In this document: positions 15,978 through 42,657 of the stretch, in pieces
Position numbering within the stretch: position 1 is the first letter of the stretch
Layout: every line of letters begins with the position of its first letter
Assembly (NCBI GenBank): GCA_013151015.1
Contig: JAADJA010000096.1
Coordinates: forward strand, 1-55,601
DNA from: Chlorobiota bacterium
GTDB taxonomy: Bacteria; Bacteroidota; Bacteroidia; Bacteroidales; JAADJA01
DNA length: 55,601 bases
Direction: 5' to 3'
Program-made: the position numbers and the translations under genes
Notes under the pieces: generated by a model
What the model was told of the DNA's origin: nothing
Databases searched by the model: none
What the model saw: only the letters and a program-made list of their open reading frames with translations

Positions 15978-18122
15978 ATGTCTATGGCACTTGAAAAATT
16001 TACTTATGACAACAAATTAGCGAAGAATTTCGCTGTAATTACCATTGTGTGGGCGATAGTGGCTTTCCTGGTAGGGCTTATCGCCGCCTTTGAGCTGCTT
16101 TACCCATCGGTTAACCTGGGTCTGGAATACCTCACCTTTGGAAGGTTAAGGCCACTCCACACAAATGCTGCGATTTTTGCATTTGTAGGAAACGGGATTT
16201 TTACGGCTGTGTATTATTCAATGCCCCGTCTGTTAAAAACACCGATGTGGAGCAAACTACTCGGGCAGATTAATTTCTGGGGTTGGCAATTGATAATTGT
16301 TCTCGCCGCCATTACTCTTCCCATGGGCCTTACATCGGGTAAAGAATATGCCGAATTGCAATGGCCGATCGACATCCTTATCGCCCTTATCTGGGTAGCT
16401 TTTGGGATCAACATGATCATGACAATGGTAAAAAGACGGACAAAGCATATCTATGTGGCCATCTGGTTTTACATCGCCACGTTTGTAACCGTTGCCGTCC
16501 TTCACATTTTTAATTCTTTTGAACTGCCCTATTCATTTTTCGGGAGCTACTCTGTGTTTCACGGCGCACAGGATGCTATGGTACAATGGTGGTACGGACA
16601 TAATGCGGTAGCTTTTTTCCTTACGACACCTATGCTGGGCCTGATGTATTACTTTATCCCCAAAGTTTCAAACAGGCCAATTTATTCATACAAGTTGTCC
16701 ATCATCCATTTCTGGACACTGATATTCTTATATATCTGGGCAGGCCCACACCACCTTTTATATCAAGCTATCCCTGATTGGGCACAAGCTGTTGGAATTG
16801 TGATGTCGATTGCCTTGCTGGCCCCATCCTGGGGAGGTATGATCAATGGACTTCTAACGCTGCGCGGTGCATGGGACAAAGTTAGGGAAGACCCTGTTTT
16901 GAAACTTTTTGTCGTGGGCGTTACCGCTTACGGTATGTCAACATTTGAAGGCCCGTTGCTTTCCTTGAAAACCGTGAACGCCATCAGCCATTTTACCGAC
17001 TGGACAATTGCCCACGTACATATTGGCACCCTTGGATGGAACGGTATGATGATATTCGGTATGCTCTATTGGCTGTTCCCTAAATTCTATGGTGTAAAGC
17101 TTTATTCGCGTTCGTTGGCAAATACGCACTTTTGGCTGGCAACACTCGGAATGCTTTTCTTTGCCATTCCCCTTTACTTTGCAGGTTTCACACAAGCACT
17201 GATGTGGAAACAATTTACCGCTGAAGGATACCTGAAATATCCCAACTTCCTTGAGACCTACATCCAGATCAGGCCCATGCACATGTTAAGGGCAGTGGGC
17301 GGAACCCTGTACCTCACAGGTGCGTTGATTGCTGTTTACAATTTATTTAAAACTGCCAATGCAGGTAAATTTATCCGCTTTCAGGATGCTGAAGCTGAAA
17401 ACGAAGTCAAACATGTGGAACATCATAAAGGCTGGTTGAACCACAGGAAAATTGAAGGAAAACCCGTTACTTTCACAATTTGGGCTCTTATCGTAATTAT
17501 GATCGGTGGATTGGTTGAATTTGTCCCCATGTTCATCGGGCCGTTTAACAACCACCCCGAACTGACGATCAACGTTAAACCATACACACCCCTGGAATTG
17601 GCAGGTAGGGACATTTATATTAAAGAAGGGTGTTTTAATTGCCATTCACAAATGATACGACCTTTCCGTTCTGAAGTAGAACGCTATGGAGAGTATTCCA
17701 AAACAGGGGAGTTTGTCTATAACCATCCTTTCCAATGGGGATCGCGCCGTACAGGGCCCGATTTGGCACGGGAAGGGTTGCCCTTTGACAAAGGCGGCAA
17801 GCTCAAGAAACCAGATGCCTGGCATTATGAACATATGATCAATCCGCAAAAAACCAATATCCAGTCCATCATGCCCCCTTATCCGTGGCTCGCGACAAAG
17901 GATATCGATATGGATATCATCCCGGCCAAGATCAGGGCCATGCAAACGCTCGGAGTCCCTTATCCCGAAGGATATGACCAAAAAGCCGTGGCCGATCTGC
18001 AAAAGCAGGCACATGGAATTGCCGAAGGCTTAAGAAAATCGGGCATCGAAGTGGAAGACCAAAAAGAGATTATTGCAATGATTGCCTATCTACAAAGACT
18101 GGGGACCGATATTGCGAACTAA
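15978..18122 (+). CDS. ccoNO: cbb3-type cytochrome c oxidase, fused subunits I and II (CcoNO)
   Basis: This single 714-residue chain joins two subunits that are separate in proteobacteria. Residues 1 to about 470 form CcoN: a low-spin haem His in 'HTNAAIFAFVGN', the CuB region 'WWYGHNAVAF' and 'AGPHHLLY', the 'TAYGMSTFEGP' segment bearing the active-site tyrosine, and 'HVHIGTLGWNG'. After a further helix, residues of about 530-714 form the CcoO domain with one c haem (CFNCH) and the conserved 'RPFRSEVERYG' and 'RRTGPDLAREG' stretches. The complex reduces oxygen with high affinity at the inner membrane. ATG 15978 could be replaced by the next ATG two codons later. Confidence 0.96.
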   Translation: MSMALEKFTYDNKLAKNFAVITIVWAIVAFLVGLIAAFELLYPSVNLGLEYLTFGRLRPLHTNAAIFAFVGNGIFTAVYYSMPRLLKTPMWSKLLGQINFWGWQLIIVLAAITLPMGLTSGKEYAELQWPIDILIALIWVAFGINMIMTMVKRRTKHIYVAIWFYIATFVTVAVLHIFNSFELPYSFFGSYSVFHGAQDAMVQWWYGHNAVAFFLTTPMLGLMYYFIPKVSNRPIYSYKLSIIHFWTLIFLYIWAGPHHLLYQAIPDWAQAVGIVMSIALLAPSWGGMINGLLTLRGAWDKVREDPVLKLFVVGVTAYGMSTFEGPLLSLKTVNAISHFTDWTIAHVHIGTLGWNGMMIFGMLYWLFPKFYGVKLYSRSLANTHFWLATLGMLFFAIPLYFAGFTQALMWKQFTAEGYLKYPNFLETYIQIRPMHMLRAVGGTLYLTGALIAVYNLFKTANAGKFIRFQDAEAENEVKHVEHHKGWLNHRKIEGKPVTFTIWALIVIMIGGLVEFVPMFIGPFNNHPELTINVKPYTPLELAGRDIYIKEGCFNCHSQMIRPFRSEVERYGEYSKTGEFVYNHPFQWGSRRTGPDLAREGLPFDKGGKLKKPDAWHYEHMINPQKTNIQSIMPPYPWLATKDIDMDIIPAKIRAMQTLGVPYPEGYDQKAVADLQKQAHGIAEGLRKSGIEVEDQKEIIAMIAYLQRLGTDIAN

Positions 18123-18142
18123 ACTTTTTAAACCTGTTCACC

Positions 18143-18355
18143 ATGTCAAAAATCGCTTACGAATTCGCAAAAAACATCCCGTGGTTAGATGAGGTCTCGA
18201 CCATAAACACCGTGTTTTTCTTCATCATGTTCGTTTTAATAATCATTTGGGTCTTGCGGATGAAAAAGAAAGATGTGGACGAGTATAAGAATATGCCATT
18301 GGATGATGGCAATGAAAAAAATTCGGTTAATAACTTAAAAAATACTTTACTATGA
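18143..18355 (+). CDS. ccoQ: cbb3 oxidase small subunit CcoQ/FixQ
   Basis: This 70-residue protein has one membrane helix (TVFFFIMFVLIIIWVLRM) followed by a charged tail 'KKDVDEYKNMPLDDG', the size and layout of CcoQ. It stabilises the CcoP interaction in other bacteria. Its stop overlaps the ccoP start in an ATGA, so they are coupled. Confidence 0.85.
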   Translation: MSKIAYEFAKNIPWLDEVSTINTVFFFIMFVLIIIWVLRMKKKDVDEYKNMPLDDGNEKNSVNNLKNTLL

Positions 18356-18978
18356 GTAATGAAAAACATTCAAATTATTCAGTCAACGAAGACTCACAAT
18401 ACGAAATTGACACGTTAACAAATGACCGCCTGCTGAAAGACCATTCATACGATGGCATCCAGGAATTGGACAACGACCTTCCGCCTTGGTGGAAGTGGCT
18501 TTTTTATCTGACCATTGTATTTGGCATTATCTATCTCGTCCGTTTATGGGTTTTTGAGGCCGATGACCTCGTCCAAAATACGGAATATAAAATTGAAGTG
18601 GATGAAGCAAATAGATTATATCAGGCATCTACCCTTTCACAGAACACTGAACTTGAAATGAAGGTACTTACCGATGCCAATTCTATTGCAGCGGGCAAGG
18701 ACATTTATGACAAAAGTTGTGCGGTTTGCCATACTGCTGATGGCGGTGGATTGGTAGGCCCTAACTTCACCGATGACTATTGGATACACGGCAATACCAT
18801 GGAAGAAATGTTCCAGATTGTAACCAATGGGGTCTTGGAAAAAGGGATGACACCTTTCAAGGATCAGCTATCTCCCCAAAAACGACTGGAAGTGTTGAGT
18901 TATATTGTAACCTTGCACGGAACGACACCTGCCAACCCGAAAGCTGCCGAGGGGGATAAACTGGATTGGCCATATTAG
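18352..18978 (+). CDS. ccoP: cbb3 oxidase cytochrome c subunit CcoP, monohaem form
   Basis: This 208-residue protein has an N-terminal cytoplasmic segment, 'LPPWWKWLFYLTIVFGIIY' as the single membrane helix (about 43-68), and one class I cytochrome c domain with C123-A-V-C-H127 and a likely axial Met in 'GMTPFKDQL'. Proteobacterial CcoP has two c haems, and this one has a single haem. It accepts electrons from a donor such as a bc-complex partner or soluble cytochrome and passes them to CcoO. Confidence 0.93.
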   Translation: MSNEKHSNYSVNEDSQYEIDTLTNDRLLKDHSYDGIQELDNDLPPWWKWLFYLTIVFGIIYLVRLWVFEADDLVQNTEYKIEVDEANRLYQASTLSQNTELEMKVLTDANSIAAGKDIYDKSCAVCHTADGGGLVGPNFTDDYWIHGNTMEEMFQIVTNGVLEKGMTPFKDQLSPQKRLEVLSYIVTLHGTTPANPKAAEGDKLDWPY

Positions 18979-19036
18979 CTCTTTGTTTTAAAACTTTTCG
19001 ATATGTTATTTGCATTTTTTCCCGGTGATGAAGATC

Positions 19037-19094
19037 AAGTAGGCAGTTTGCAATATGCAAACACACAAACTATCTACTTGCAAATTGCCTACTT
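19037..19094. repeat. Inverted heptamer-periodic repeat between ccoP and ccoG
   Basis: The arms AAGTAGGCAGTTTGCAA (19037-19053) and TTGCAAATTGCCTACTT (19078-19094) match at 16 of 17 positions. Inside sits a second palindrome, GTTTGCA-ATA-TGCAAAC (19046-19062). The left half reads as 7-bp units GCAGTTT, GCAATAT, GCAAACA. Similar heptamer units occur at 25948. Confidence 0.6.
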
Positions 19095-19140
19095 TGGCTT
19101 TCTGGCTTATTCTGGTTAGAAATGTTATGGATTAATACTA

Positions 19141-19179
19141 TTTGGCTATGGTGGTTTTTTTACCATAGCCAAATTTTTT
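19141..19179 (+). terminator. Rho-independent terminator after ccoP
   Basis: A perfect 12-bp stem (TTTGGCTATGGT at 19141-19152 with ACCATAGCCAAA at 19162-19173) and a 9-nt loop are followed by six T residues. It separates ccoS-NO-Q-P from ccoG, so ccoG probably has its own promoter in the 42 bp that follow or depends on read-through. Confidence 0.85.
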
Positions 19180-19221
19180 GACAAACATGCTACATATTGA
19201 ACACAATTAAATATTATAGAT

Positions 19222-20619
19222 ATGAGTGAAAAAAACCTTAAAGAAGAACATCATTCATCATATAGGGACAAGCTCTCGACTGTAAGCGAGGAAGGGAAAC
19301 GGGTCTGGGTCTATCCTAAAAAACCCAAAGGAAGGCATTATAATTACAGGAAGCTTGTTTCGGTTTTCCTGTTGGCCTTGTTTTTTGTAACACCATTCCT
19401 TAAATATAAGGGAGACCCTATTTTCCTTTTTAATATCATTGAACGGAAATTTATCCTTTTTGGAATGATTTTCTGGCCTCAGGACTTCCATCTTGTCGTA
19501 TTGTCACTTATTACATTTGTAGTCTTTATTATATTGTTCACCGTTGTTTACGGCAGGGTTTTTTGCGGATGGATATGCCCGCAAACCATTTTTATGGAAA
19601 TGGTATATCGGCAGGTGGAGTATATGATCGAAGGGGATTTCATGAAGCAAAAAAAACTTGACAAACAAGATTGGGACTTTGAAAAAACCTGGAAGAAAAG
19701 CCTGAAACACGTTCTCTTTTATATGATGTCGTTTGTTATCACAAACATATTTGCTTCGTATGTGCTTAGCATGGATAAACTATTGGGCTTATACCGGGAT
19801 GGATTCACTGCCCATGCAAAGTTTTTTATTGGCATAACGATCTTTTCGGGCGTTTACTACTTTATATATGCTTTTTTCAGGGAGCAGGTTTGCACCATAG
19901 CTTGCCCCTATGGAAGGTTGCAAGGGGTTTTCCTCGATGACAAGTCCATCGTGGTGGCCTATGATTACGTAAGGGGCGAACCCAGGGGAAAGAAGGAAAA
20001 GGGAGACTGCATCGCTTGTAACAGTTGCGTAAATGTTTGCCCTACGGGAATCGACATCCGCAATGGCACCCAACTGGAATGTATCAACTGTACTGCTTGT
20101 ATCGATGCCTGTGATGCCGTCATGGACAGGATTAAAAAACCCCGCGGCCTTATCCGTTATGATTCCGAAAAAGGGATAACCGAGAACGAACACAAAATAA
20201 TGAACCCCAGAACCATTGCCTATTCGGTGGTCTTGCTTATCCTTCTTGGTGTTGTGAGCACAATGCTGTTTTTAAGAACCGATTTTGAAACAACGATCTT
20301 AAGGCAAAGGGGAACATTGTTCCAAAAATACGGTGAGGACAGTTATAGCAATATTTATGAAATCGAATTTGTGAACAAAAGCCGAGAGAGGCATAAAGTG
20401 GGAATAAAACTGATTGAACCAAAAGGCAAGATTGTGATGATGACAGAAGACATTGTGGTAGAAAAAGGGCAAATCGGAAAGGGCAAATTCCTGACCGTAT
20501 TAAAAACATCGGAGTTAAAATCTTCACGGACTATTTTGAAATTCGGCCTTTATTCTGACAACAGACTTGTGGAGGAATATGAAGTAACTTTTGTAAGCCC
20601 ACGTAAAAAGGAGAGATAA
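19222..20619 (+). CDS. ccoG: Cytochrome c oxidase accessory protein CcoG
   Basis: This 465-residue polyferredoxin has about five membrane helices in its N-terminal 330 residues. It has the FixG-type cysteines 'CGWICPQT', 'CTIACPYGRLQG' and a two-cluster ferredoxin 'CIACNSCVNVCP ... CINCTACIDACD'. An IgD-like domain follows a further helix at about 335. CcoG is a copper reductase that helps load CuB of cbb3 oxidase. It heads the second cco transcription unit. Confidence 0.94.
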   Translation: MSEKNLKEEHHSSYRDKLSTVSEEGKRVWVYPKKPKGRHYNYRKLVSVFLLALFFVTPFLKYKGDPIFLFNIIERKFILFGMIFWPQDFHLVVLSLITFVVFIILFTVVYGRVFCGWICPQTIFMEMVYRQVEYMIEGDFMKQKKLDKQDWDFEKTWKKSLKHVLFYMMSFVITNIFASYVLSMDKLLGLYRDGFTAHAKFFIGITIFSGVYYFIYAFFREQVCTIACPYGRLQGVFLDDKSIVVAYDYVRGEPRGKKEKGDCIACNSCVNVCPTGIDIRNGTQLECINCTACIDACDAVMDRIKKPRGLIRYDSEKGITENEHKIMNPRTIAYSVVLLILLGVVSTMLFLRTDFETTILRQRGTLFQKYGEDSYSNIYEIEFVNKSRERHKVGIKLIEPKGKIVMMTEDIVVEKGQIGKGKFLTVLKTSELKSSRTILKFGLYSDNRLVEEYEVTFVSPRKKER

Positions 20620-24575: not shown

Positions 24576-25889
24576 ATGAAACTCAAACATCTTTCTTACG
24601 GATTATTTCTTTTTCTTTCGTTTTTATTCATTTACTCGTGTACGCACACACCTGAGGAAATCATCAAGCCCACACCACCGGGCAACGGGAATATAGACCC
24701 TCCAATCGATACCATTGCCTGCGACTCGTCCAATGTTACCTATCCGGGGACTGTTGTTCCATTGATGGATGCATACTGCTTTACTTGTCACAGTGGCCCA
24801 ACACCTTTGGGTGGCCTGGACTTTACGGATTATAGCCAATTATCATTTGTGGCCGAGAATGGAGCTTTGATCGGATCATTAAAACACTTTGAAGGATTTG
24901 AACCCATGCCACAGGGAGGCAAGCAGCTTTCGGATTGTGAAATTTCCCTGATTGAAATGTGGGTAAACGATACAACATTTACGACACCACCGGACACAAC
25001 CATCTGCGATTCGTCTTTTGTGACCTATCCCGGAACCGTGGTCCCCATTTTTGAAGCCCATTGTATTGGTTGCCATGGTCCACCAACACCTTTGGCCGGA
25101 ATTAATTTAACGAAGTTTGAAGATGTAGCTGTTATTGCCCAGAGTGGCCAGCTCATGGGATCCATCCTTCATTTGCCCGGATATTCGGAAATGCCCAAAA
25201 ACGGGCCTGCCCTCACGGATTGCGAAACGGCATTGATACAAAAATGGATAAACGACACGACCTTTACCACTGGTGGTGGTGGATCGCCCTGCGACCCGGA
25301 CACGGTTTACTTCCAAAATACCGTTTTACCTTTATTGCAATCAAGTTGCGCAATTACAGGTTGCCATGATGAAATCTCCCATGAGGAAGGGGTGATATTG
25401 ACCACCTATCAGAAAATAATGCAAACTGCCGAAATAAGTCCGTTTCAGCCCCTTAACAGTAAACTTTACGATGTGGTCAAAGATGATTTCCAGTCGGATA
25501 GGATGCCGCCAACTCCCGCCCCACCCTTTACGCAAGACCAAAAGGACATAATCTATGACTGGATTTTGCAAGGGGCTTTAAACAACTATTGCGAGAGTGA
25601 AGATTGTGATTCAGTAAATGTAACATTTTCGGGAACGGTTTTCCCAATTATCCAGAACAATTGCTACGGCTGTCATAGCGGCTCAAACCCAAGTGGTGGA
25701 ATAAGTCTCGCAAATTACAACCAGGTTAAAAATGCGGGAAGTATTCCCCCGGGAACAAGTGGCAGCCTTTTGGGGTCAATAACATGGGCCAGCGGGAATT
25801 CGCCCATGCCGAAAAACGGAAATAAATTATCGGATTGCAAAATTGCTCAAATCAATAAATGGATAGAGGATGGGATGCCTAACAACTAA
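24576..25889 (+). CDS. Lipoprotein with four c-type cytochrome modules
   Basis: This 437-residue protein has a signal peptide with lipobox 'IYSC' (C22), a Pro-rich linker and four repeats of about 95 residues. Repeats 1, 2 and 4 share 'CDS-x2-VTYPGTVVP', a CXXCH (CFTCH, CIGCH, CYGCH), 'GGI/L' near the haem, 'PMP' as likely axial Met, 'LSDCE' and a final 'WIND'. Repeat 3 has CAITGCH (CX4CH) and ends with 'RMPPTP'. Each full repeat has an extra cysteine pair outside the haem motif. It should be anchored in a periplasm-facing or surface membrane leaflet as a tetrahaem electron carrier. The ATG at 24576 begins a proper signal peptide; an earlier in-frame start does not. Confidence 0.87.
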   Translation: MKLKHLSYGLFLFLSFLFIYSCTHTPEEIIKPTPPGNGNIDPPIDTIACDSSNVTYPGTVVPLMDAYCFTCHSGPTPLGGLDFTDYSQLSFVAENGALIGSLKHFEGFEPMPQGGKQLSDCEISLIEMWVNDTTFTTPPDTTICDSSFVTYPGTVVPIFEAHCIGCHGPPTPLAGINLTKFEDVAVIAQSGQLMGSILHLPGYSEMPKNGPALTDCETALIQKWINDTTFTTGGGGSPCDPDTVYFQNTVLPLLQSSCAITGCHDEISHEEGVILTTYQKIMQTAEISPFQPLNSKLYDVVKDDFQSDRMPPTPAPPFTQDQKDIIYDWILQGALNNYCESEDCDSVNVTFSGTVFPIIQNNCYGCHSGSNPSGGISLANYNQVKNAGSIPPGTSGSLLGSITWASGNSPMPKNGNKLSDCKIAQINKWIEDGMPNN

Positions 25890-25947
25890 CATTAAACCTT
25901 TTGGGTCGGAGTTGGCTTCGGGCAGTGGCGACCAAGGTTGAAAAAAA

Positions 25948-25968
25948 GCAGTATGCAGTATGCAGTTG
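25948..25968 (+). repeat. Heptamer tandem repeat (GCAGTAT units)
   Basis: Three consecutive 7-bp units GCAGTAT, GCAGTAT, GCAGTTG lie in the spacer before the single-module cytochrome. The unit is related to those at 19043. Confidence 0.6.
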
Positions 25969-26010
25969 GCAAAATGACAAAAGCAATTATCAGAAACAAG
26001 AAAATACACG

Positions 26011-26382
26011 ATGCAAAGAATTATTAAATTAACACTTTTCATAACCGGGATATTTGTTTTCCATGCCTGTTATTTCGACAAGGAGGAACTTTTGTACCCT
26101 TCGGGGAACGGATGCGACACGACGAATGTGACATACTCGGGAACTGTTGCCCCCATCCTTGAAAACAACTGCAATACTTGCCATAGCGGAACAGATCCTT
26201 TTGCAGGGATTTTGACAGATAACTACGATGATTTGAAAACCATTGTGGACAATGGAAGGTTTTGGGGCGCAACTTCACATGACCCCAACTTTTCGCCCAT
26301 GCCAAAAGACCGGCCACAGCTTTCGGAATGTTCGCTTTTGCAAATTGATATCTGGATCAAAAACGGGGCATTGAATGATTGA
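26011..26382 (+). CDS. Single-module c-type cytochrome lipoprotein
   Basis: This 123-residue protein has lipobox 'FHAC' (C20) and one haem module C54-N-T-C-H58 with 'VTYSGTVAPIL' before and 'SPMPKDRPQLSECS' after. It is the same module as in the tetramodular lipoprotein 120 bp upstream, including the extra Cys pair ('GCDTTN' and 'SECS'). It probably arose by duplication and acts as a small electron carrier in the same chain. Confidence 0.87.
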   Translation: MQRIIKLTLFITGIFVFHACYFDKEELLYPSGNGCDTTNVTYSGTVAPILENNCNTCHSGTDPFAGILTDNYDDLKTIVDNGRFWGATSHDPNFSPMPKDRPQLSECSLLQIDIWIKNGALND

Positions 26383-26508
26383 TCGGAAAAAATGCACCAA
26401 GACACATCCCGCCACCTCATTACCAATCGCACCTTCTTCCCTGCTTTCGCATAGTTTTAGCGGAGCAAAGCCAAGAGGGTAGCTTAAAAAACAAAATTCG
26501 AAAAAAGA

Positions 26509-27414
26509 ATGAAACTGAAACTGATTAACGTACTCTTTATCTTTTTGGGGATCGGCAATGTTGCCGTTTCACAAGACGACCTGATGGATCTGCTCGGGAG
26601 CGATGAACCGACAACGAATTACACCTATGCAACCTTTAAGACCACACGGGTAATCAATGCCCAATCCGTGGAGAACCCGGCAAAAGGCGTATTGCTCTTT
26701 TTGATCCAGCACCGCTTCGGAAGGTTGAATTCCGGGGCTTATGAACTGTTTGGACTCGATCAGGCAACACTCCGCCTTGGCTTTGAATACGGTATTACTG
26801 AGAGGCTGGCCATTGGGATTGGAAGGAGCACTTACCAAAAAACCTTTGATGGTTTTGTGAAATACAAAGTACTGCAACAAAGCACCGGTTTGAAAAACAT
26901 GCCCATAACGCTAACCTATATCGCAACTGCCGACATCATTTCCTTGAAATGGGAAGATTATACCGACCCTGTCCGCAACAATTATTTCAGTTCACGGGTT
27001 TCATACACCCACCAACTTTTGCTTGCGCGGAAATTCAACAAAAGCCTGTCGTTGCAACTTATGCCAACAGTGGTCCATAAAAACCTGGTGAAATATGAAA
27101 ACGACAAAAACAACATCTATTCCCTGGGGCTTGGCGGCAGGTACAAAATCACCAACCGAACTTCCATCAATGCCGAGTATTTCTATGTTTTCCCTGACCA
27201 GGTCCATTCCGATATCGACAATTCCCTTTCCATTGGTTTTGATATTGAAACGGGCGGTCATGTTTTCCAATTGGTCTTCACGAATTCAAAAGCCATGTTC
27301 GACAGGGGGTTTATTACCGAAACGCAAGGAAAATGGGGGTTGGGGGATATTTATTTCGGGTTTAATATTTCCCGGGTCTTCACCTTACGTAAACCCGAGT
27401 CATTTAAAAAATAA
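26509..27414 (+). CDS. DUF5777-type outer-membrane beta-barrel protein
   Basis: This 301-residue protein has a signal peptide (cleavage near 'VAVSQ') and then an N-terminal 'DDLMDLL' segment followed by 'ATFKTTRVINAQSVENPAKGVLLFLIQHRFG'. I recognise these as the start of the DUF5777 family, which is annotated as a beta-barrel. The rest alternates aromatic and glycine-rich strands ('LRLGFEYGITERLAIGIGRS', 'SLGLGGRYKITNRTSINAEYFYVFP') and ends with a barrel-like strand. No enzymatic motif is visible. It follows the two haem lipoproteins, so it may be the porin part of a porin-cytochrome system. Confidence 0.8.
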   Translation: MKLKLINVLFIFLGIGNVAVSQDDLMDLLGSDEPTTNYTYATFKTTRVINAQSVENPAKGVLLFLIQHRFGRLNSGAYELFGLDQATLRLGFEYGITERLAIGIGRSTYQKTFDGFVKYKVLQQSTGLKNMPITLTYIATADIISLKWEDYTDPVRNNYFSSRVSYTHQLLLARKFNKSLSLQLMPTVVHKNLVKYENDKNNIYSLGLGGRYKITNRTSINAEYFYVFPDQVHSDIDNSLSIGFDIETGGHVFQLVFTNSKAMFDRGFITETQGKWGLGDIYFGFNISRVFTLRKPESFKK

Positions 27415-27543
27415 TGAAGTGCATTGACAATTGGATTTTGTGTAATTTTGAACGTTGATGTCTTTCGCGTCCAACAACTAATCAATTACCTGCATTTGCA
27501 AGCTACGGCCGGGCAGGCAACTAATTACCATTATTCCAAATCC

Positions 27544-28479
27544 ATGAAAACCATCCACATATCCATTGTTCTTTTTATCCTAACTATTCTAACATTTCCT
27601 GTTTTTTCCCAAAGGCTTGATTTTGAAAAGATAGATGTTGGCCCCGGACCAGAAGATATTGTCCTTGACACGCTGGGCGCCGAAAGGCTGTTGATTTCCT
27701 GTGCCGAGAGACGAAAAGGCCCAATAAAGGGAAACGGGATTTGGGAATATGATTTGAAAACAAAAAAAGCCAGGAAACTTGAGGTCAACCTTATGGCCGA
27801 CAGGCCTTTCAATCCACATGGGATTTACCTGATTTATGAAAATGGCGGAAAATACCTTTTCGTGATCAACCACATTTCAAAAAAGCAAAACGAGATTATC
27901 CGGTTCAGGGTACTCACGAATTCATTGGCTGAGGAAAAATCTTTCCGGGACAAACTTGTGAAACACCCGAACGATATTTATGCTGCCAACAAAAACGAGT
28001 TTTATTTTACCAACGACAGGCCGTTCTGTGGAAGCATTACAAAATACGACCAGGGAAATTATTCGTTGATCGCAAAACACCTCCATTTCCCAAATGGCAT
28101 CCAGGGATTGGACGACACGCTTTATGTGAGCACAACCATTTCCAATAAGGTTTTTCAAATTTACAAAACCAAATCGGCATATAAACGGAAGAAACTGCTG
28201 AAGGTGAAAGGGGGCGATAATTTTTCGGTAAACGGGAAAAACAGCCTTTTGCTCACTTCCCACCCAAAGCTTGTGAAATTTCTGAATCATGCCAAAAACC
28301 CTGAAAAAAAATCCCCCTCACAGGTATTTGAAATAGACACACAAACAGGTAAAAAGAAGTTGGTTTTTTCATCTGAAGGAGATGATATAAGTGCTGTTTC
28401 GGTGGCGCTTGAATACAAAGGTTTTCTTTACCTCGGACAGGTGTTTGATGGGTTTATCCTCAAAATACCCATAAAATAA
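27544..28479 (+). CDS. Secreted SMP-30/paraoxonase-like beta-propeller protein
   Basis: This 311-residue protein has a signal peptide (cleavage near 'PVFSQ') and a six-bladed propeller of the arylesterase/gluconolactonase type. 'GPGPEDIVLDT', 'FNPHGIYLI', 'HPNDIYAANKNEFYFTND' and 'FPNGIQGLDDTLYVST' resemble the calcium- and substrate-site loops of PON enzymes (His/Asn pairs). A lactone or ester hydrolase role is possible. A longer frame exists, but the signal peptide begins at ATG 27544. It ends at a hairpin shared with the convergent octahaem gene. Confidence 0.75.
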   Translation: MKTIHISIVLFILTILTFPVFSQRLDFEKIDVGPGPEDIVLDTLGAERLLISCAERRKGPIKGNGIWEYDLKTKKARKLEVNLMADRPFNPHGIYLIYENGGKYLFVINHISKKQNEIIRFRVLTNSLAEEKSFRDKLVKHPNDIYAANKNEFYFTNDRPFCGSITKYDQGNYSLIAKHLHFPNGIQGLDDTLYVSTTISNKVFQIYKTKSAYKRKKLLKVKGGDNFSVNGKNSLLLTSHPKLVKFLNHAKNPEKKSPSQVFEIDTQTGKKKLVFSSEGDDISAVSVALEYKGFLYLGQVFDGFILKIPIK

Positions 28480-28504
28480 AAAGGCTCCATCCCTGAAGCC
28501 TTTT
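28479..28504. terminator. Bidirectional hairpin between convergent genes
   Basis: AAAAGGCT (28479-28486) pairs perfectly with AGCCTTTT (28497-28504) across a 10-nt loop, between the convergent PON-like and octahaem genes. The minus-strand reading is followed by TATTTTA, the plus-strand reading by As, so it would work better on the minus strand. Confidence 0.55.
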
Positions 28505-28539
28505 AAAAAAATTTAATAAACTTTACTAATTGTGATCGA

Positions 28540-30057
28540 TTATTTCATAAGTACCAGCTTTTGTACCGATGATTGGTTACCGGCCGAAACTTTAACAAAA
28601 TAATATCCTGAACTTACATCTACCCCTGTATTGCTATTGCCGTCCCACAAAATAATTTGGTTACCGGACGACCTGTTGTCATTCGTCCTCGAATATACCA
28701 TCTGCCCGGTAGCATTGAATATCTTTACGTCAACACTTGCGGGGTTCATAAGCAGGAAATTGATTTTTACCGGTCCGTTTGATGGGTTTGGGTACAGTCC
28801 AAAATTCAGGAGGCTCATTTCTTTTACTGCTGTTTCGCCATGCATATTGGCCGCTTCACTTGCAGCTTGTACAATGGTTTTATCTGGAATATCGTCATTT
28901 GGGTCATCATTGTGGCAGCCAAGGCAAGAAAAACGGGGGCTCAATGCAGCTTCCCTTTCCTCATCATCTTTTACTGCACTTCCATCTTCATTGAACATGG
29001 AATTGGTATCGGCAATAATCGTAAACAAGTGAGACCTTACATCCCCTTTGTATCCACTCTCGCCCCTTGTTGTCCCTGACTTTGCGGCAAAAGGCATATG
29101 ACAATCTATACAGGTGGCATCATTAGAGTGGTTTGTCAATGCGGCCTGATCGGGATGACAAGTGGTACAGTTCATTGTAATTCCGTCTCCGTCCCAGATC
29201 ACGCGCTTATGTGGATCGTGGCAAGTGGCACAACTAAAACCATTCTCATAATGTTTTGTTGAAACAAATTCGTCCCATTGCTCGTGGTGCTTGATAAAAC
29301 CTCCACTTGAGTTGATCGGGCTGGTATAGCTACGGTTGTGGCAGGTACCACACAAAAAGTTAATGTCATTGCCATTGGGATCAGGTGTTTGCACCACCCC
29401 ATCAATTGTCAATCCACCGCTTGCATTGTCTTGATGGGCAAATTCATAGACTTTGTCGATATTGGAAGTAGTTGGGCTGGCAACGTGCTCGCTTCCCGGA
29501 CCATGGCAGCTTTCGCAACCCACACCGCCTTCGGTAAATGTCCCAAGGCCTGCAACACCGTCCAACCATGTCCCAAGGGTATCACCGCCGGTCGTATGGC
29601 ATTTAAAACAACTGTAGTTATAAATTTTAACGTCACCCGGATGATAATCGACCCAACCATAGTCAACCCCTCCGTAGAAATTAAATTGGTTATGTCCATA
29701 TCCGGGACTGTACAAGCTTCCTGCTGTCCCAACAATATGCCCGTCGTTCCCGACAAAGCGCGCTTTCCATCCATAACCACCAATGACCCCGGCAATCTGG
29801 CTCCAGTCATGGGATCCGTCACCAAGGTTCGTCATCCACGAATCTTCAAAATTAATGGCCTCAGGTGGGTAAACCGGCGGTTGACCATTTTCGACGACCG
29901 AAAACTTGTAAGGGTGTCCCGATGCCAGCCAATTGTTATAATTTTCAGGATGGCAGGCAGAGCAAGCTTCGGAACCAACAAAACTTTGCGACTGGACATA
30001 AGCATACGAACCCATGAACAACGCAAACGCAACGATTAAAAGTAGATGTTTTTTCAT
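28540..30057 (-). CDS. T9SS-secreted octahaem cytochrome c
   Basis: This 505-residue protein has a signal peptide and eight CXXCH motifs (CSACH at 32, then CFKCH, CESCH, CGTCH, CATCH, CTTCH, CIDCH, CLGCH). The 'GSEACSACHPENYNNWLASGHPYKF' opening is the pattern of the cytochrome c554/multihaem family. The final 85 or so residues are a type A T9SS tail ('LYPNPSNGPVKINFLL ... SSGYYFVKV ... KLVLMK'). Export through T9SS would put a multihaem electron carrier outside the cell or on its surface. Divergently placed is an Fnr-type regulator, with an FNR box between them. Confidence 0.93.
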   Translation of the reverse strand: MKKHLLLIVAFALFMGSYAYVQSQSFVGSEACSACHPENYNNWLASGHPYKFSVVENGQPPVYPPEAINFEDSWMTNLGDGSHDWSQIAGVIGGYGWKARFVGNDGHIVGTAGSLYSPGYGHNQFNFYGGVDYGWVDYHPGDVKIYNYSCFKCHTTGGDTLGTWLDGVAGLGTFTEGGVGCESCHGPGSEHVASPTTSNIDKVYEFAHQDNASGGLTIDGVVQTPDPNGNDINFLCGTCHNRSYTSPINSSGGFIKHHEQWDEFVSTKHYENGFSCATCHDPHKRVIWDGDGITMNCTTCHPDQAALTNHSNDATCIDCHMPFAAKSGTTRGESGYKGDVRSHLFTIIADTNSMFNEDGSAVKDDEEREAALSPRFSCLGCHNDDPNDDIPDKTIVQAASEAANMHGETAVKEMSLLNFGLYPNPSNGPVKINFLLMNPASVDVKIFNATGQMVYSRTNDNRSSGNQIILWDGNSNTGVDVSSGYYFVKVSAGNQSSVQKLVLMK

Positions 30058-30199
30058 AATTTGATTATTTTGTAAATATTAAACTAAGATTGAATACTAT
30101 TGAATACCCATTAAATTTCGCATTTTTTTTAGTTGGCTATATTAAATAACATTCATAAAATTACCTACATTTGTGCATTGATTGATTTCCATGATTTAA

Positions 30200-30234
30200 T
30201 TGATATAGATTAATATTATATTGATAAATATCAA
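30200..30234. promoter_or_regulatory. Tandem FNR-type boxes between octahaem cytochrome and fnr-like gene
   Basis: TTGATAAATATCAA (30221-30234) is a perfect FNR consensus (TTGAT-N4-ATCAA). TTGATATAGATTAA (30200-30213) matches 9 of the 10 consensus bases. The centres are 21 bp apart, two helical turns. They probably bind the product of the adjacent fnr-like gene, which keeps the Glu-x3-Arg recognition residues. Confidence 0.75.
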
Positions 30235-30270
30235 TTTATTTTCGATTAAATCCCTTAACTCATTGATTTT

Positions 30271-30966
30271 ATGGCTAAATTTTCAAAAAATTCAATTTGT
30301 TATACCTGTAACCTCAAACACAACCTCTTCCGGTTTTTAACAGATGACGAATTAAAATACATCAATGAATCCCGCTATGAAGTACATTACAACAAGGGGG
30401 AGAACATTTTCAAACAGGGGGACGCATTTACCCATATTGCCTGCCTTACCTATGGCATGGCCAAGGTGTACCTCGAAGGCGAAAACGATAAAAATGTTAT
30501 ACTCAGATTGCTAAAGCCCGTTGAATTGATCGGTAGCCCGGGTTTCCAGGTTGACAACAGGCATCATTTTTCCGTTGTCACGATCCAGGATTCCAGGGCT
30601 TGTTTAATTGATGCCAATGTGTTTGAACAGGTCTTAAAAAGCAACTCATCTTTCAACCTTGAGTTTATCAAATACATTAATAATGCAACCATACGGCTGT
30701 TCAATAAATTGACGGGGCTCACCGGGAAACATATGCATGGAAGGATTGCAGATGCCCTTTTATACCTCTCTGACCAGGTTTACAAAAAATCATCTTTCAC
30801 CACAAATCTTTCGAGACAGGATATTGCCGATATGACGGCACTAACAAAAGAAAGCTGTATAAGGATACTCAAAGAGTTCAAAGATGAAGGGATAATTGAA
30901 TATGGTTCAAACTCGTTCAACTTGCTGGACAAGGAAAAGTTAGAAATGATAAGCAGGGTTTCCTGA
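30271..30966 (+). CDS. Crp/Fnr-family regulator (third copy)
   Basis: This 231-residue protein has an N-terminal C10-x2-C13, an effector beta-roll ('NIFKQGDAFTHIACLTYGMAKVYLE'), a long helix and a winged helix-turn-helix with recognition segment TKESCIRIL (Glu-x3-Arg as in FNR/CRP). It differs from the pair at 3090-4504 by lacking the four-cysteine block. Additional cysteines occur at about 67 and 111, but a cluster site is not obvious. It is divergent from the octahaem cytochrome, with FNR boxes 37-70 bp upstream of its start, so autoregulation and control of the cytochrome are likely. Confidence 0.9.
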   Translation: MAKFSKNSICYTCNLKHNLFRFLTDDELKYINESRYEVHYNKGENIFKQGDAFTHIACLTYGMAKVYLEGENDKNVILRLLKPVELIGSPGFQVDNRHHFSVVTIQDSRACLIDANVFEQVLKSNSSFNLEFIKYINNATIRLFNKLTGLTGKHMHGRIADALLYLSDQVYKKSSFTTNLSRQDIADMTALTKESCIRILKEFKDEGIIEYGSNSFNLLDKEKLEMISRVS

Positions 30967-35905: not shown

Positions 35906-36460
35906 TCAATCCATTTTATCCAATCTCACATCAACGGTAATTTCCAGGGAATCGGCGATTTTCTTTGAAACGGCATTCGGTATCCTGATTTTATAATCGG
36001 ACGGTTTTACATTAAAGACGGCCAAACCGTCAATCTTCCCCCCTATTACCGTAAAGGTACCGCTGTGCTTCACTTTGTTGGTGACACCGTGTATTGTAAG
36101 ATCGCCTTCGATCGTAGCGGGGTATTTGCCATCCACCGAAAAATCAATATCCGCAATGTTGGTCACTTTCCCTTTGAACATGGCATTGGGATATTTATCC
36201 GACTCTGCATAGTTTTCGTTGAAATGTTCCTGCATCAGGGCTTTTTCAAATTCAAAGGATTTCATCAATACCTTGAAAACAAAATCGCCGGTTTGGCTGT
36301 CGAGGGCGCAATTTACCTGTTTGTTGAGCGCATCAATTGTTTCCATGGGTGTTTCGGAATAAAATCGGATATGCCCGTTTTTTGTGATGTATTTTTGGGC
36401 GAAGGAATTTGTTGTCAGTAAGATTATACTTGCGAAAAAGAGTGTTTTTAGAGTTTTCAT
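35906..36460 (-). CDS. YceI-family periplasmic protein
   Basis: This 184-residue protein has a signal peptide (cleavage after 'SFAQ') and a lipocalin-like YceI domain: 'GHIRFYSETPMETIDALNKQV', 'FNENYAESDKYPNAMFKGKV', 'GDLTIHGVTNKVKHSGTFTV'. Members bind polyisoprenoid or other lipophilic molecules and often sit next to cytochromes and DUF5777 barrels. A frameshifted paralogue lies at 42110-42657. Confidence 0.92.
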   Translation of the reverse strand: MKTLKTLFFASIILLTTNSFAQKYITKNGHIRFYSETPMETIDALNKQVNCALDSQTGDFVFKVLMKSFEFEKALMQEHFNENYAESDKYPNAMFKGKVTNIADIDFSVDGKYPATIEGDLTIHGVTNKVKHSGTFTVIGGKIDGLAVFNVKPSDYKIRIPNAVSKKIADSLEITVDVRLDKMD

Positions 36461-36495
36461 GGTGATAGTTTAATGTGCTATAGTGTAAAAGATTT

Positions 36496-36555
36496 ATGTC
36501 GGATGACGTATGTCAGTTGCCAGATGTACAACGGTCATCCGACATCCGACATCGG
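36496..36555. repeat. Inverted heptamer array (ATGTCGG/CCGACAT)
   Basis: ATGTCGGATGAC (36496-36507) pairs perfectly with GTCATCCGACAT (36534-36545). The left side reads as 7-bp units ATGTCGG, ATGACGT, ATGTCAG, TTGCCAG, ATGTACA and the right side as two CCGACAT units (36539-36552). It lies in the spacer between the CXXCH protein and yceI. Confidence 0.6.
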
Positions 36556-36565
36556 TCTTGAATAA

Positions 36566-37390
36566 TTATTTCTTGACAATTCGTTTGGTTACCCGTGTAT
36601 CGTCATCAAAATAAACAACGACGTAATAAATCCCGCTCAACAAACCGGTTGCGGTAATGCCAATGTCTTCATTGTCCAATAAGTTATCCTTGGAGTAAAC
36701 CTGTTTTCCAATGGAATTAAAAACTTTCAAGCTGGAAACCTTTGCATTTTCCCCTGGGATATTTACGGTAAAATAGTTGGTAAATGGATTGGGGAAAACC
36801 CTTACGGAGCTTTTTGCCCCAAAACTATCGCCCACGGAAGTATTTATGTCCTCACCGACAAACATGCTCGTTTTATAAATCACGTCACCCGATGGGCTTC
36901 CGTTTCCATTTGCCGCATTGAAGGCAGCATAAAAGCCCACTTCGCCTGTTCCCGCTTGCGGGGCGATCCAATCAAAAGACCAGCTTTTGGAATCCCCGTT
37001 CGGGGTTGTTCCCGTACTTTTATGGGTTACGGCGGCATCATCGTTCGTAAACCTGTTTTCAACGTCATTGGTAATGATGAAAGTCCCTGTTTTGGCATTT
37101 CCGCTGTCTTCTGCGGTCGCTTCAAAACCAAACCTTGCAGCCCCGGCATGAGAACCAGCAGCAGTAATGGTATAGGTTTCGCCAGGGACATAGCCCGTTG
37201 CCGGTATATTGGAAGTAAGCCAGTCTTCCTGATCAGTGGCCGATCCGCCATGGCATTGTGTGCAGGTTACACCGTTATCGCCGGGTGAGCCCGACTTTGC
37301 CCCGGGAGAGCCGGTAAATTTTCCAAGTTCTGATGTAAGAAGAACAAATGACCCTATGGCCACAATTAATATTAGTAAAGTGTTTTTCAT
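36566..37390 (-). CDS. T9SS-secreted protein with one CXXCH (choice-of-anchor V type)
   Basis: This 274-residue protein has an N-terminal signal helix and then 'TGSPGAKSGSPGDNGVTCTQCHGGSA' with C43-T-Q-C-H47. A beta-rich domain with 'GYVPGETYTITAAGSHAGAARFGFE' is the pattern of the choice-of-anchor V/reeler-like proteins. A type A sorting tail ends it ('VFPNPFTNYFTVNIPGE ... GIYYVVVYFDD'). A single haem c bound by a secreted adhesin-like domain is inferred from the motif. Confidence 0.85.
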   Translation of the reverse strand: MKNTLLILIVAIGSFVLLTSELGKFTGSPGAKSGSPGDNGVTCTQCHGGSATDQEDWLTSNIPATGYVPGETYTITAAGSHAGAARFGFEATAEDSGNAKTGTFIITNDVENRFTNDDAAVTHKSTGTTPNGDSKSWSFDWIAPQAGTGEVGFYAAFNAANGNGSPSGDVIYKTSMFVGEDINTSVGDSFGAKSSVRVFPNPFTNYFTVNIPGENAKVSSLKVFNSIGKQVYSKDNLLDNEDIGITATGLLSGIYYVVVYFDDDTRVTKRIVKK

Positions 37391-37448
37391 GATATTTCTT
37401 TTATTGTTGGATTATTAAATGATTGATTTGTATCTATTTTAAAATTAT

Positions 37449-37886
37449 TTACTGGATTATCGAGCATTTTTCCAAAATGACATCGGTATCATTGTAGCCT
37501 GTACAATAACCTTTTATTTTGACGTAGGTTTCGGGTTTTACTTTCATTAATCCCTGATTATATTTTGGGAGCATTGTACAACGTATGCCCTCATCACCAA
37601 ATATGCCTTCCTGAAACACGAATACGGCTATGACCATTGAGTCTGCCTGCTCTATCTTTTGAACGGCCCCTTCCAAAAGGATAACCTTTCCGTTGAAATT
37701 TGCCTCGGCACTTTCTCGTCCGGAAATATAGGAATCGAACAATTCATAAGCTGACAAGATGAAATCAGGCTTTGCTTTTTCAAAATCCCTGTGCGGTTTA
37801 TTATAAATGAACACATATCCAAGGGTCCCGGCAATAATCCCAATAATTAAAAGCCCTATCCCTATTTTGATGGTTTTTTTCATCAT
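37449..37886 (-). CDS. Membrane-anchored OB-fold (tRNA_anti-like) protein
   Basis: This 145-residue protein has an N-terminal helix (IKIGIGLLIIGIIAGTLGYVFIY) and then a small domain with 'FNGKVILLEGAVQKIEQAD' and 'VKPETYVKIKGYCTGYNDTDVILEKCSIIQ', characteristic of tRNA_anti-like OB folds of Bacteroidota. Start ATG 37886 (or the next ATG) precedes the helix; the longer open frame upstream has no sensible content. Function is unknown. Such genes often sit beside YceI genes, as here. Confidence 0.78.
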   Translation of the reverse strand: MMKKTIKIGIGLLIIGIIAGTLGYVFIYNKPHRDFEKAKPDFILSAYELFDSYISGRESAEANFNGKVILLEGAVQKIEQADSMVIAVFVFQEGIFGDEGIRCTMLPKYNQGLMKVKPETYVKIKGYCTGYNDTDVILEKCSIIQ

Positions 37887-38149: not shown

Positions 38150-38914
38150 TTACTTCGGTTTGCCGGAAAGCCACTTTTTGAAGCTCCCGGAACGATCGGT
38201 GCTGGCAATCACATCAAATTCGCAGGGCGGTATCAGTTCCATTGTCACCCTGGATTTCGAGTAGGAATACATTTCCTGTATTGAATTGAAATTGATGATA
38301 AACTGCCTGTTGATCCGAAAGAAAACAAGTGGGTCCAACAGTGGCTCCAGCTTGTCAAGGCTTTGGTCGATGGGATAGGTATGGTCATCAAAGGTCTTGA
38401 AAAAGATGCCATCTGTCTGTGTGAAAAAGTAGGCGATATCCACCACGGTGATGGCTTTGATGGTTTGCCCAAAACGTATGACAAAACGTTTTTGGTATTC
38501 CTTTTTTGTAATCAGTTTTGCAAGGGAGGCATAATCGAAATCCGGCTTGTCTTCTTTCTGGAATATTTCCCTGAATTTTTCGAAGCTACGTGCCAGTTCA
38601 TCTTTTTTCACAGGTTTCAAAAGGTAATCCACGCTGTTCAGTTTAAAGGCCTGTATGGCAAACTCATTGTATGCGGTAATGAAAATGATGGGCACATCTA
38701 CTTTCACCTCTTCAAAAATTTCAAAACTTGACCCATCGGACAATTGGATGTCCTGGAGAACCAGGTCGGGATGTCGGTTGTTTTTGTACCAATCCACACC
38801 AGATTCAATACTATCGATAATATCACAGATTTGTGCATTGGGCTCCAAATCCAGGACCATCTTTTTCAGTCGGTTTGCGGTGGCTTGTTCGTCTTCAATT
38901 ATTAGTATTCTCAT
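38150..38914 (-). CDS. LytTR-family response regulator
   Basis: This 254-residue protein has a receiver domain with phospho-acceptor D55 (LVLQDIQLSDGSS), the 'ITAYNEFAIQAF' switch region and 'LLKPVKKDEL' lysine. The C-terminal LytTR DNA-binding domain holds 'DIAYFFTQTDGIFFKTFDD' and 'FFRINRQFIINFNSI'. It is the partner of the kinase encoded just upstream on the same strand. The extended 'SYSKSRVTMELIPPCEFDVIASTDRSGSFKKWL' end is standard for the family. Confidence 0.94.
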   Translation of the reverse strand: MRILIIEDEQATANRLKKMVLDLEPNAQICDIIDSIESGVDWYKNNRHPDLVLQDIQLSDGSSFEIFEEVKVDVPIIFITAYNEFAIQAFKLNSVDYLLKPVKKDELARSFEKFREIFQKEDKPDFDYASLAKLITKKEYQKRFVIRFGQTIKAITVVDIAYFFTQTDGIFFKTFDDHTYPIDQSLDKLEPLLDPLVFFRINRQFIINFNSIQEMYSYSKSRVTMELIPPCEFDVIASTDRSGSFKKWLSGKPK

Positions 38915-42109: not shown

Positions 42110-42657
42110 TCACTCTTTTATGAGGCTCACATCTATCGAAACACTGATTTCCTCTGCAATCTTTTGAAATACCACATGTGGGATTTTTATATTGTAATCT
42201 TCCAGCGAAATTTGAAAATCCGATCGAATCCTCAATTTGTCTTTTCCAATCACAATTGTTGCCTTGATAATTTCCTCCTTCTCAATCCCGTGTATCGAAA
42301 AAATGCCTTTAGCGCGCACCGGGAACTCCCCCATCTGTGAGAAATCAATATGCTCGACCAGTTTCCCCATGAACCGGATATACGGGAATTTGTCGGTTTC
42401 CAAATAGTTTTCGTAAAAATGCTCTTGCTGGAGTTTTGAGTTGAAACCTTTCAGGCTCGTTACTTTTAACCGGAAGACGAAGGTGCGCTTTTCCTGATCG
42501 AGAATCCCTTTCATGATTCGGCACTGATAAGTTCAAGGGGCGCATCGGAAGTAAAAACCACCTTTCCGTTTTCTGTTTTAAATATCCCATCAGAAATATT
42601 TTGCCCAAAAGCATTGATTTGGAAAATGATGAGAAATGTCAATAATATTTTGTTCAT
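42110..42657 (-). pseudogene. Frameshifted YceI-family gene
   Basis: The 5' part (ATG 42657, 48 codons) encodes a signal peptide and 'GKVVFTSDAPLELISAES', the YceI start, and ends in TGA at 42513-42511. The rest continues in another frame from an ATG overlapping that stop (42514) with 'KGILDQEKRTFVFRLKV ... QEHFYENYLETDKFPYIRF' to the end of the domain. Compared with YceI proteins of this subgroup about three residues are missing at the junction, so a small deletion with frameshift is likely. Translational coupling of two pieces through the ATGA is the alternative. Confidence 0.8.

Follow-up and report, generated by a model that had tools for sequence, protein, structure and literature searches.

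We analysed a 55,601-nucleotide stretch of a Chlorobiota bacterium genome (assembly GCA_013151015.1, contig JAADJA010000096.1; hereafter the window), in which two haem lipoproteins, here named hlpA and hlpB, are encoded upstream of an outer-membrane beta-barrel protein of the DUF5777 family. The three genes (24576-27414, plus strand) are a conserved unit and the core of a widespread, little-described redox gene set of the Bacteroidota:

24576-25889, plus strand: haem lipoprotein A (hlpA) with four haem modules, three of them CXXCH and one CX4CH; lipobox ...YSC-THTPEE
26011-26382, plus strand: haem lipoprotein B (hlpB), lipobox ...HAC-YFDKEE, one CXXCH, acidic export-signal-like N-terminus
26509-27414, plus strand: outer-membrane barrel of the DUF5777 family, modelled with 12 strands; N-terminal segment 36-60 conserved (putative plug)

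We propose, with a probability of about 0.4, that the haem lipoproteins and the barrel are the core of an outer-membrane redox relay of the Bacteroidota, by which electrons may be transferred across the membrane. Such a relay is suggested since a one-haem lipoprotein and the barrel are constant in both DUF5777 subfamilies that we distinguish (type 1, represented in the window, and type 2), type 2 loci keep respiratory company and hlpB has an acidic N-terminus. The conserved gene content, the haem motifs and the lipoboxes are directly supported, and the barrel fold is supported as a model. In the proposed mechanism hlpA, with its several haems, would be positioned on the periplasmic side of the outer membrane and hlpB, with its export-signal-like N-terminus, at the outer face, the small barrel being a membrane-spanning scaffold or solute path. 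Electrons would move between periplasmic carriers, or a YceI-bound quinone, and the outer surface via contacts at the barrel, with no decahaem wire threaded inside it. The type 2 sister subfamily would be plugged into quinol oxidation by cytochrome b561, a NapC-like protein or an NrfD/iron-sulfur (FeS) module, and into multihaem carriers. A cytochrome c assembly protein is present in the window's own genome.

Conserved partners of the barrel in type 1 loci

Type 1 loci were collected by searching GTDB with an alignment of 13 DUF5777 sequences, the best 80 loci, of more, being kept; the profiles for the lipoproteins, YceI and the OB-fold protein were based on members from the same loci, and neighbours were counted within 7 kb of the barrel, with a subset of 48 loci having at least 5 kb on both flanks. 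Wherever the upstream flank is at least 3.5 kb long, a homologous haem lipoprotein is encoded there on the same strand (65 of 65 loci); of the 15 loci with a shorter flank, 11 have it as well, and the four (of 80) that lack it are all cut short. The co-occurrence of haem lipoproteins and DUF5777 in related genomes, expected by an earlier reading of the window made without database searches (the sequence-only reading), is thus borne out. Within the subset, the lipoprotein is present in 48 loci, YceI in 39 and the OB-fold (tRNA_anti-like) protein in 33, against low counts for a Crp-family regulator (3), a Reeler protein (1), an open reading frame (ORF) with at least four CXXCH motifs (1) and the octahaem cytochrome encoded downstream of the window barrel (0); over all 80 loci, YceI was found near 68 barrels and the OB-fold protein near 60. 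Of 18 hlpB-like matches in five genomes, 17 coincide with a barrel locus. The usual gene order is a lipoprotein of ~230 amino acids, a lipoprotein of ~125 amino acids, OB-fold protein, YceI and barrel.

The haem modules of hlpA are CFTCH, CIGCH, CAITGCH (the CX4CH module) and CYGCH, and the protein matches the Pfam families PSCyt1 (4e-18) and Cytochrome_CBB3 (3e-16), while hlpB has the single module CNTCH. Three stretches of hlpA align to hlpB at 39-43% identity, and therefore both lipoproteins share a module, as the sequence-only reading had stated; both genes are present where it placed them. A CX4CH plus a CXXCH module is found in 49 of 51 hlpA-type orthologues, and a CXXCH in 60 of 71 hlpB-type orthologues, which mostly have one haem and show a distal MP in the family consensus. 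The hlpB-type N-termini (55 of the 71 have a recognised lipobox) contain on average 3.0 acidic residues at positions +2 to +8, compared with 1.0 in 74 other lipobox-containing ORFs of the same loci and 1.4 in hlpA. Surface export in Bacteroidetes is described as being driven by early negative charges after the lipidated cysteine (PMC5080379). A histidine at position +3 after this cysteine was observed in 42 of the 43 hlpA-type proteins with a recognised lipobox.

In the window, the module consists of two separate, convergent arms, hlpA-hlpB-barrel (24576-27414, plus strand) and YceI/Reeler/OB-fold (35906-37883, minus strand), with 8.5 kb between the barrel and the second arm. The sequence-only reading had placed a module at 24576-30966; the genes in that interval are real and correctly located, but the conserved partners YceI and OB-fold are outside it, in the second arm. 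This arm and the genes beyond it are:

35906-36460, minus strand: YceI lipocalin-like protein, conserved partner
36566-37390, minus strand: Reeler / choice-of-anchor V protein with a type IX secretion system (T9SS) tail, one CTQCH, TIGR04183 above cut-off
37449-37883, minus strand: tRNA_anti-like (OB-fold) protein, conserved partner
38150-38914, minus strand: LytTR response regulator, next after the OB-fold gene, membership uncertain
39041-41947, minus strand: Reg_prop / Y_Y_Y sensor histidine kinase, after the LytTR gene, membership uncertain
42110-42532, minus strand: second YceI gene, likewise following in genomes G012, G006 and G011

YceI is convergent to the barrel in five of the seven same-genus loci with an intact barrel and no octahaem gene (G005, G006, G011, G012 and G014; the type 1 loci of G007 and G008, with fragmentary barrels, are left out of this count), all five with other or few genes between the two arms; in the stretches fetched from G009 and G015, the lipoprotein-barrel arm alone was seen. 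Between the window arms there are genes for a propeller, the octahaem protein, a Crp-type regulator (crp), a pirin, a methyltransferase, a MarR protein, a thioredoxin-like protein and others, the same as in G016, whose genome is nearly identical to that of the window. We regard the first six and further genes among them as variable filling, since the octahaem-less loci of the genus keep the convergent layout. The Reeler protein is in the same arm in the genus relatives G005, G011 and G014, but beyond the genus set only one of 80 barrels has it nearby; it is more likely than the octahaem protein to be an exported haem partner.

The LytTR regulator and the Reg_prop kinase adjoin the OB-fold gene, and relatives of each are within 7 kb of 16 of the 80 type 1 barrels, a count that has no background value beside it. 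Such an arrangement could be expected if the haem lipoproteins and YceI reported the redox state of the envelope to this pair instead of sustaining a respiratory flux. We consider this very improbable: 64 of the 80 loci are without these relatives, the type 2 paralogues are found in the company of bulk electron carriers and LytTR/Reg_prop-type regulators are common in Bacteroidota. Constant membership of the two genes, suggested by a single-linkage clustering (30/81 and 17/81), was discarded; that cluster was mixed, as it held the window crp gene, and the direct search gave 16/80 for each, so their membership is uncertain.

Modelled fold of the barrel and known systems

The window barrel is a member of DUF5777 (PF19089; 6.7e-98, 327.3 bits, cut-off 23.1), which confirms the family assigned to it by the sequence-only reading; the Pfam scan returned DUF5777 and two sub-threshold matches, and the Pfam description of PF19089 gives no function. 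In a sample of the phylum, 115 of 296 near-complete genomes encode a member, compared with 0 of 14 control genomes. We modelled the barrel from an alignment (A2) of 109 DUF5777 sequences of both subfamilies, which excludes four of the 80 barrels for an internal stop within the match (L070, L075, L076 and L102) and, among the 22 type 2 barrels, the near-duplicates L159 and L175. The model, which replaced an earlier one made from 13 sequences with a predicted local distance difference test score (pLDDT) of 70, has a pLDDT of 90.8, a predicted template modelling (TM) score of 0.85, 12 strands and a helix in the first long loop. The non-strand segment 36-60 is conserved, with a block mean pLDDT of 88-98, and probably folds into the barrel lumen as a plug. 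The best solved fold match of the model is the porin NanC (TM score 0.68 by target length), which we take to have 12 strands, then FapF and OmpG. MtrB is absent among the 50 fold matches listed, and the DUF5777 sequence profile gave no match to solved chains at E values up to 1. Residues H68, H251, F253, G284, R289 and others are invariant over the 109 proteins, in both subfamilies, and H190 is nearly so; in a strand-by-strand hydrophobicity count, the histidines and the arginine among the invariant residues are on whichever side of the strand is more hydrophobic. A bis-histidine haem site inside the barrel (H68, H251, H190) was considered and dropped because all three histidines fall on that side.

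In MtrAB, as part of MtrCAB, the barrel is described as having 26 strands with a decahaem protein inside (PMC8406198), while another review gives 28 predicted strands (PMC7096707); a survey of such porins demanded at least 14 strands and names the families MtrB, OmbB, ExtB/E and ExtI (PMC7399161). The DUF5777 loci resemble the MtrCAB, OmbB-OmaB-OmcB and Ext sets of Shewanella and Geobacter in having a barrel gene beside haem proteins, among them haem lipoproteins, and the type 2 loci further resemble MtrCAB-type sets in inner-membrane quinol oxidation and periplasmic-type multihaem carriers. Nevertheless, the DUF5777 barrel is not homologous to known porins of this kind, as judged from the Pfam, profile and listed fold matches, its constant cytochrome partner has one haem, and no multihaem carrier is found in 79 of 80 type 1 loci, whereas an adjacent multihaem gene is present in 24 of 28 type 2 loci. 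The standard barrel formula gives a backbone radius of ~11-12 Å for 12 strands and ~23 Å for 26. A barrel wide enough to hold a cytochrome had been set beforehand as a condition of the porin-cytochrome reading; with 12 modelled strands, against 26 in MtrAB and the minimum of 14 in the survey, the barrel seems too narrow for this and thus, if the model holds, DUF5777 cannot work like MtrB.

Cyc2, in which a one-haem domain is fused to a predicted 16-strand barrel with the cytochrome at the periplasmic mouth (PMC8406198), is similar in pairing one small haem domain with one modest barrel. A split version of it would be a channel for small molecules or metals, a soluble reductant, e.g. Fe(II), entering the barrel and being oxidised by the one-haem lipoprotein at its mouth. 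The fold match to NanC is consistent with such a channel, as is the hlpB family, which is mostly one-haem and conserves the distal MP. The DUF5777 set is, however, encoded by separate genes, has 12 and not 16 strands and includes an extra multi-module lipoprotein (hlpA, with at least two haem motifs) and the YceI and OB-fold partners; in addition, the pore is probably blocked by the conserved N-terminal segment of the model, and the presence of the family in over a third of the phylum sample fits poorly with iron oxidation as a niche trait. We thus consider a channel of this kind improbable.

Type 2 clusters and the weight of a redox role

The type 2 set comprises 28 loci from 99 relatives and from the window's own genome, all of which were examined; the figures join the results of two scripts, run on 22 and 6 loci with slightly different thresholds. 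Type 2 barrels are ~28-39% identical to the window barrel. A haem lipoprotein is present in 28/28 loci, a multihaem ORF (at least four CXXCH) in 24/28, a quinol-oxidising module (b561, NrfD or NapC-like) in 22/28 and a Crp/Fnr gene in 19/28; b561 was found in 15/22 clusters of one set and 2/6 of the other, and YceI in 2/22. Most often crp and a hexahaem protein are followed by the one-haem lipoprotein, the barrel, a heptahaem protein, b561 and a NapC-like hexahaem protein, the NapC-like proteins having a membrane-anchor-like start and the heptahaem proteins a signal-like start, as judged by eye. In the window's own genome, the type 2 copy (L147, C135:1-20000) has EB_dh, FeS, NrfD, cytochrome c, YceI and OB-fold genes beside the barrel. 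We also identified, in 20/28 loci, a multihaem ORF with a lipobox-like cysteine followed by at least four collagen-like G-x-y triplets, in stretches that often read CTKEGPxG... and are rich in Asp/Glu (e.g. L172:8360-9445, L198:2959 and L199:4075). Their C-x-K-(D/E) start resembles the surface-export signal given for Capnocytophaga, C-x-K-(D/E)2 (PMC5080379), with the second acidic residue missing in most.

Since type 2 DUF5777 lies in multihaem, quinol-oxidising and Crp/Fnr-linked clusters, a redox role at the outer membrane is likely, and the second subfamily supports a role in electron transfer; the type 2 clusters (L157-L176, L194-L199 and L145-L147) are candidates for a chain of extracellular electron transfer in Bacteroidales-type genomes. 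Of the porin-cytochrome link drawn by the sequence-only reading, the pairing of lipoproteins with DUF5777 and the probable redox role therefore stand, while the octahaem protein, the regulator and an MtrAB-type conduit do not. A bolder version, possible but rather doubtful, is that DUF5777 is a new class of Bacteroidota outer-membrane electron conduit, in which a narrow barrel and a one-haem lipoprotein would replace MtrB/MtrA. It would exist in two builds: a YceI-linked type with few haems, also found in organisms that we take to be aerobes, and a multihaem, Fnr-linked extracellular electron transfer chain in which b561/NapC-like proteins oxidise quinol at the inner membrane, a heptahaem protein is the carrier and a hexahaem lipoprotein stands on a stalk that is acidic and collagen-like.

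Several observations weigh against an outer-membrane relay. The hlpB motif is without the Lys or Ser of the surface-export signals described as tested (PMC5080379), and its motif is the argument that suggests an outer-face position. A 12-strand barrel with a probable plug cannot, on the model, enclose a cytochrome, which leaves the electron path across the membrane unexplained. Near the type 1 barrels there is no such quinol dehydrogenase of the inner membrane as in type 2 (b561 0/80, NrfD 0/80), and a multihaem ORF is near only 1/80 of them, the window itself being a further case. Finally, the named type 1 isolates (Hymenobacter, Pontibacter, Rufibacter and Salibacter) are presumably aerobes, and therefore would not need respiration of insoluble acceptors.

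An antioxidant role in the envelope is a serious rival, because YceI is the nearest constant partner of type 1 barrels, BcnA offers a precedent and the isolates just named are, as we assume, aerobes. In such a role, the quinone of YceI would quench lipid peroxyl radicals of the outer membrane, as proposed for BcnA, the haem lipoproteins would exchange electrons with YceI, the barrel would be a scaffold or a lipid/quinone path and no electrons would leave the cell. BcnA is a YceI lipocalin that, with the cytochrome b561 LcoA, is described as protecting against lipid peroxyl radicals, ubiquinone-8 being its likely ligand (PMC9113575). The gene set is like BcnA-LcoA in containing YceI and, in type 2 clusters, b561, and the pirin, MarR and thioredoxin-like genes between the window arms would also fit. 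However, b561 is absent near the type 1 barrels, the barrel and the c-type haem lipoproteins have no counterpart in BcnA-LcoA, the type 2 clusters are mostly without YceI and look respiratory, and the acidic N-terminus of hlpB points to the outer face. We therefore judge an antioxidant role unlikely and retain the redox relay as the favoured reading.

We found no paper on DUF5777 in the open-licence literature, a scope in which absence is not proof, and related searches there gave no description of this gene set; the same literature gave nothing direct on Bacteroidales multihaem proteins with T9SS tails, on collagen-like multihaem proteins or on YceI in combination with a barrel, a cytochrome and LytTR. 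The gene contexts and the two DUF5777 subfamilies are described here, with a barrel that is unrelated to known conduit porins, narrow and accompanied by a one-haem partner. Bacteroidota are abundant in sediments, digesters and guts, and DUF5777 is not among the porin families named in the survey (PMC7399161); if electrons are moved at or across the outer membrane by this set, the route used by an entire phylum is missed in surveys that look for MtrB-like porins. With a redox relay a family of unknown function would gain a testable role, and with an antioxidant function the gene set would be an outer-membrane counterpart of BcnA-LcoA. For either reading, the lipoprotein and barrel pairing, without exception in loci with enough flank, is a clean handle.

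The octahaem cytochrome, its regulator and other neighbours

The following features lie between the barrel and the second arm:

27544-28479, plus strand: weakly PON/arylesterase-like secreted propeller, near the barrel in the window and in G016 only, variable gene between the arms
28540-30057, minus strand: octahaem cytochrome with a T9SS tail, eight CXXCH, not a conserved member, variable gene between the arms
30221-30234: perfect FNR-type box TTGATAAATATCAA, between octahaem and crp
30271-30966, plus strand: Crp/Fnr regulator (crp) with three conserved cysteines (C10, C13, C111)

The octahaem protein is as the sequence-only reading had described it, convergent to the barrel, with eight CXXCH and a T9SS tail (TIGR04183, 47.1 bits, cut-off 23). 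Two matches to the PorU model of the T9SS sortase are above cut-off in the window's own genome (G000) and, from this and their C-terminal sorting domains, the octahaem and Reeler proteins are predicted to be secreted as T9SS cargo. The sequence-only reading further joined the haem lipoproteins, DUF5777 and this cytochrome into one porin-cytochrome conduit under Fnr control, which agrees with the gene order and the perfect FNR box of the window, and with the 59-67% identity of the window regulator to those beside the type 2 DUF5777 clusters of six members of the genus. However, the octahaem gene is near 0/80 type 1 barrels and, with the best 15 candidates per genome scored, full-length orthologues were found in 4 of 99 relatives (G016, G001, G008 and G030, the last in two contig pieces), the remaining matches being to the T9SS tail only. 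In G001 and G008, it has instead a response regulator and a kinase upstream and a 506-amino-acid protein without Pfam match downstream; the modelled barrel is also too narrow for such a conduit. The octahaem protein was thus rejected as part of the barrel unit; in the window, it and its Fnr-type regulator lie next to the module without belonging to it, and look like local additions. The one sign of a wider link, which counts against this rejection, is that in G030, from another family, a single contig carries both the octahaem gene and a type 2 barrel, ~14 kb apart. Overall, we regard the single Fnr-controlled conduit as highly unlikely.

The octahaem loci away from the window are at L144:3424-12460 (G008) and in L143 and L193 (G001). 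In G008, the 506-amino-acid gene is followed by genes for an OMP_b-brl_2 protein and a decahaem protein, and in G001 the OMP_b-brl_2 and decahaem genes are on another contig that continues the 506-amino-acid gene. A Crp-family gene is close to the decahaem gene. Relatives of the latter were found in 12 of 31 genomes and, away from octahaem, the surroundings fetched were without multihaem genes, so this gene is not a haem-specific partner.

In the alignment of regulators, the three cysteine columns are conserved in 22, 21 and 21 of 22 sequences, whereas a fourth Fe-S cysteine, which E. coli FNR has, does not figure among the conserved columns apart from one that is half-conserved (11/22). The box TTGATNNNNATCAA at 30221 is the only perfect one in the 55.6 kb of the window. 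Where the sequence-only reading saw an Fnr-type gene with FNR boxes, a Crp/Fnr gene and one perfect box are there, but the second box, at 30200, has one mismatch, and boxes with one mismatch are at chance level in the window (8, against 5.8 expected). Perfect boxes were found upstream of 8 of 22 crp-like ORFs, these being 8 of the 9 perfect boxes in 356,760 bases, and also in 2 of 6 further type 2 loci.

The propeller gene is likewise present, but its PON-like label is weak, the match to Arylesterase (2.6e-4, 21.6 bits) being barely above the cut-off of 21.3. Elsewhere in the window, at 15978-20619, there are ORFs that, by eye only, resemble a cbb3-type oxidase and a CcoG-like protein.

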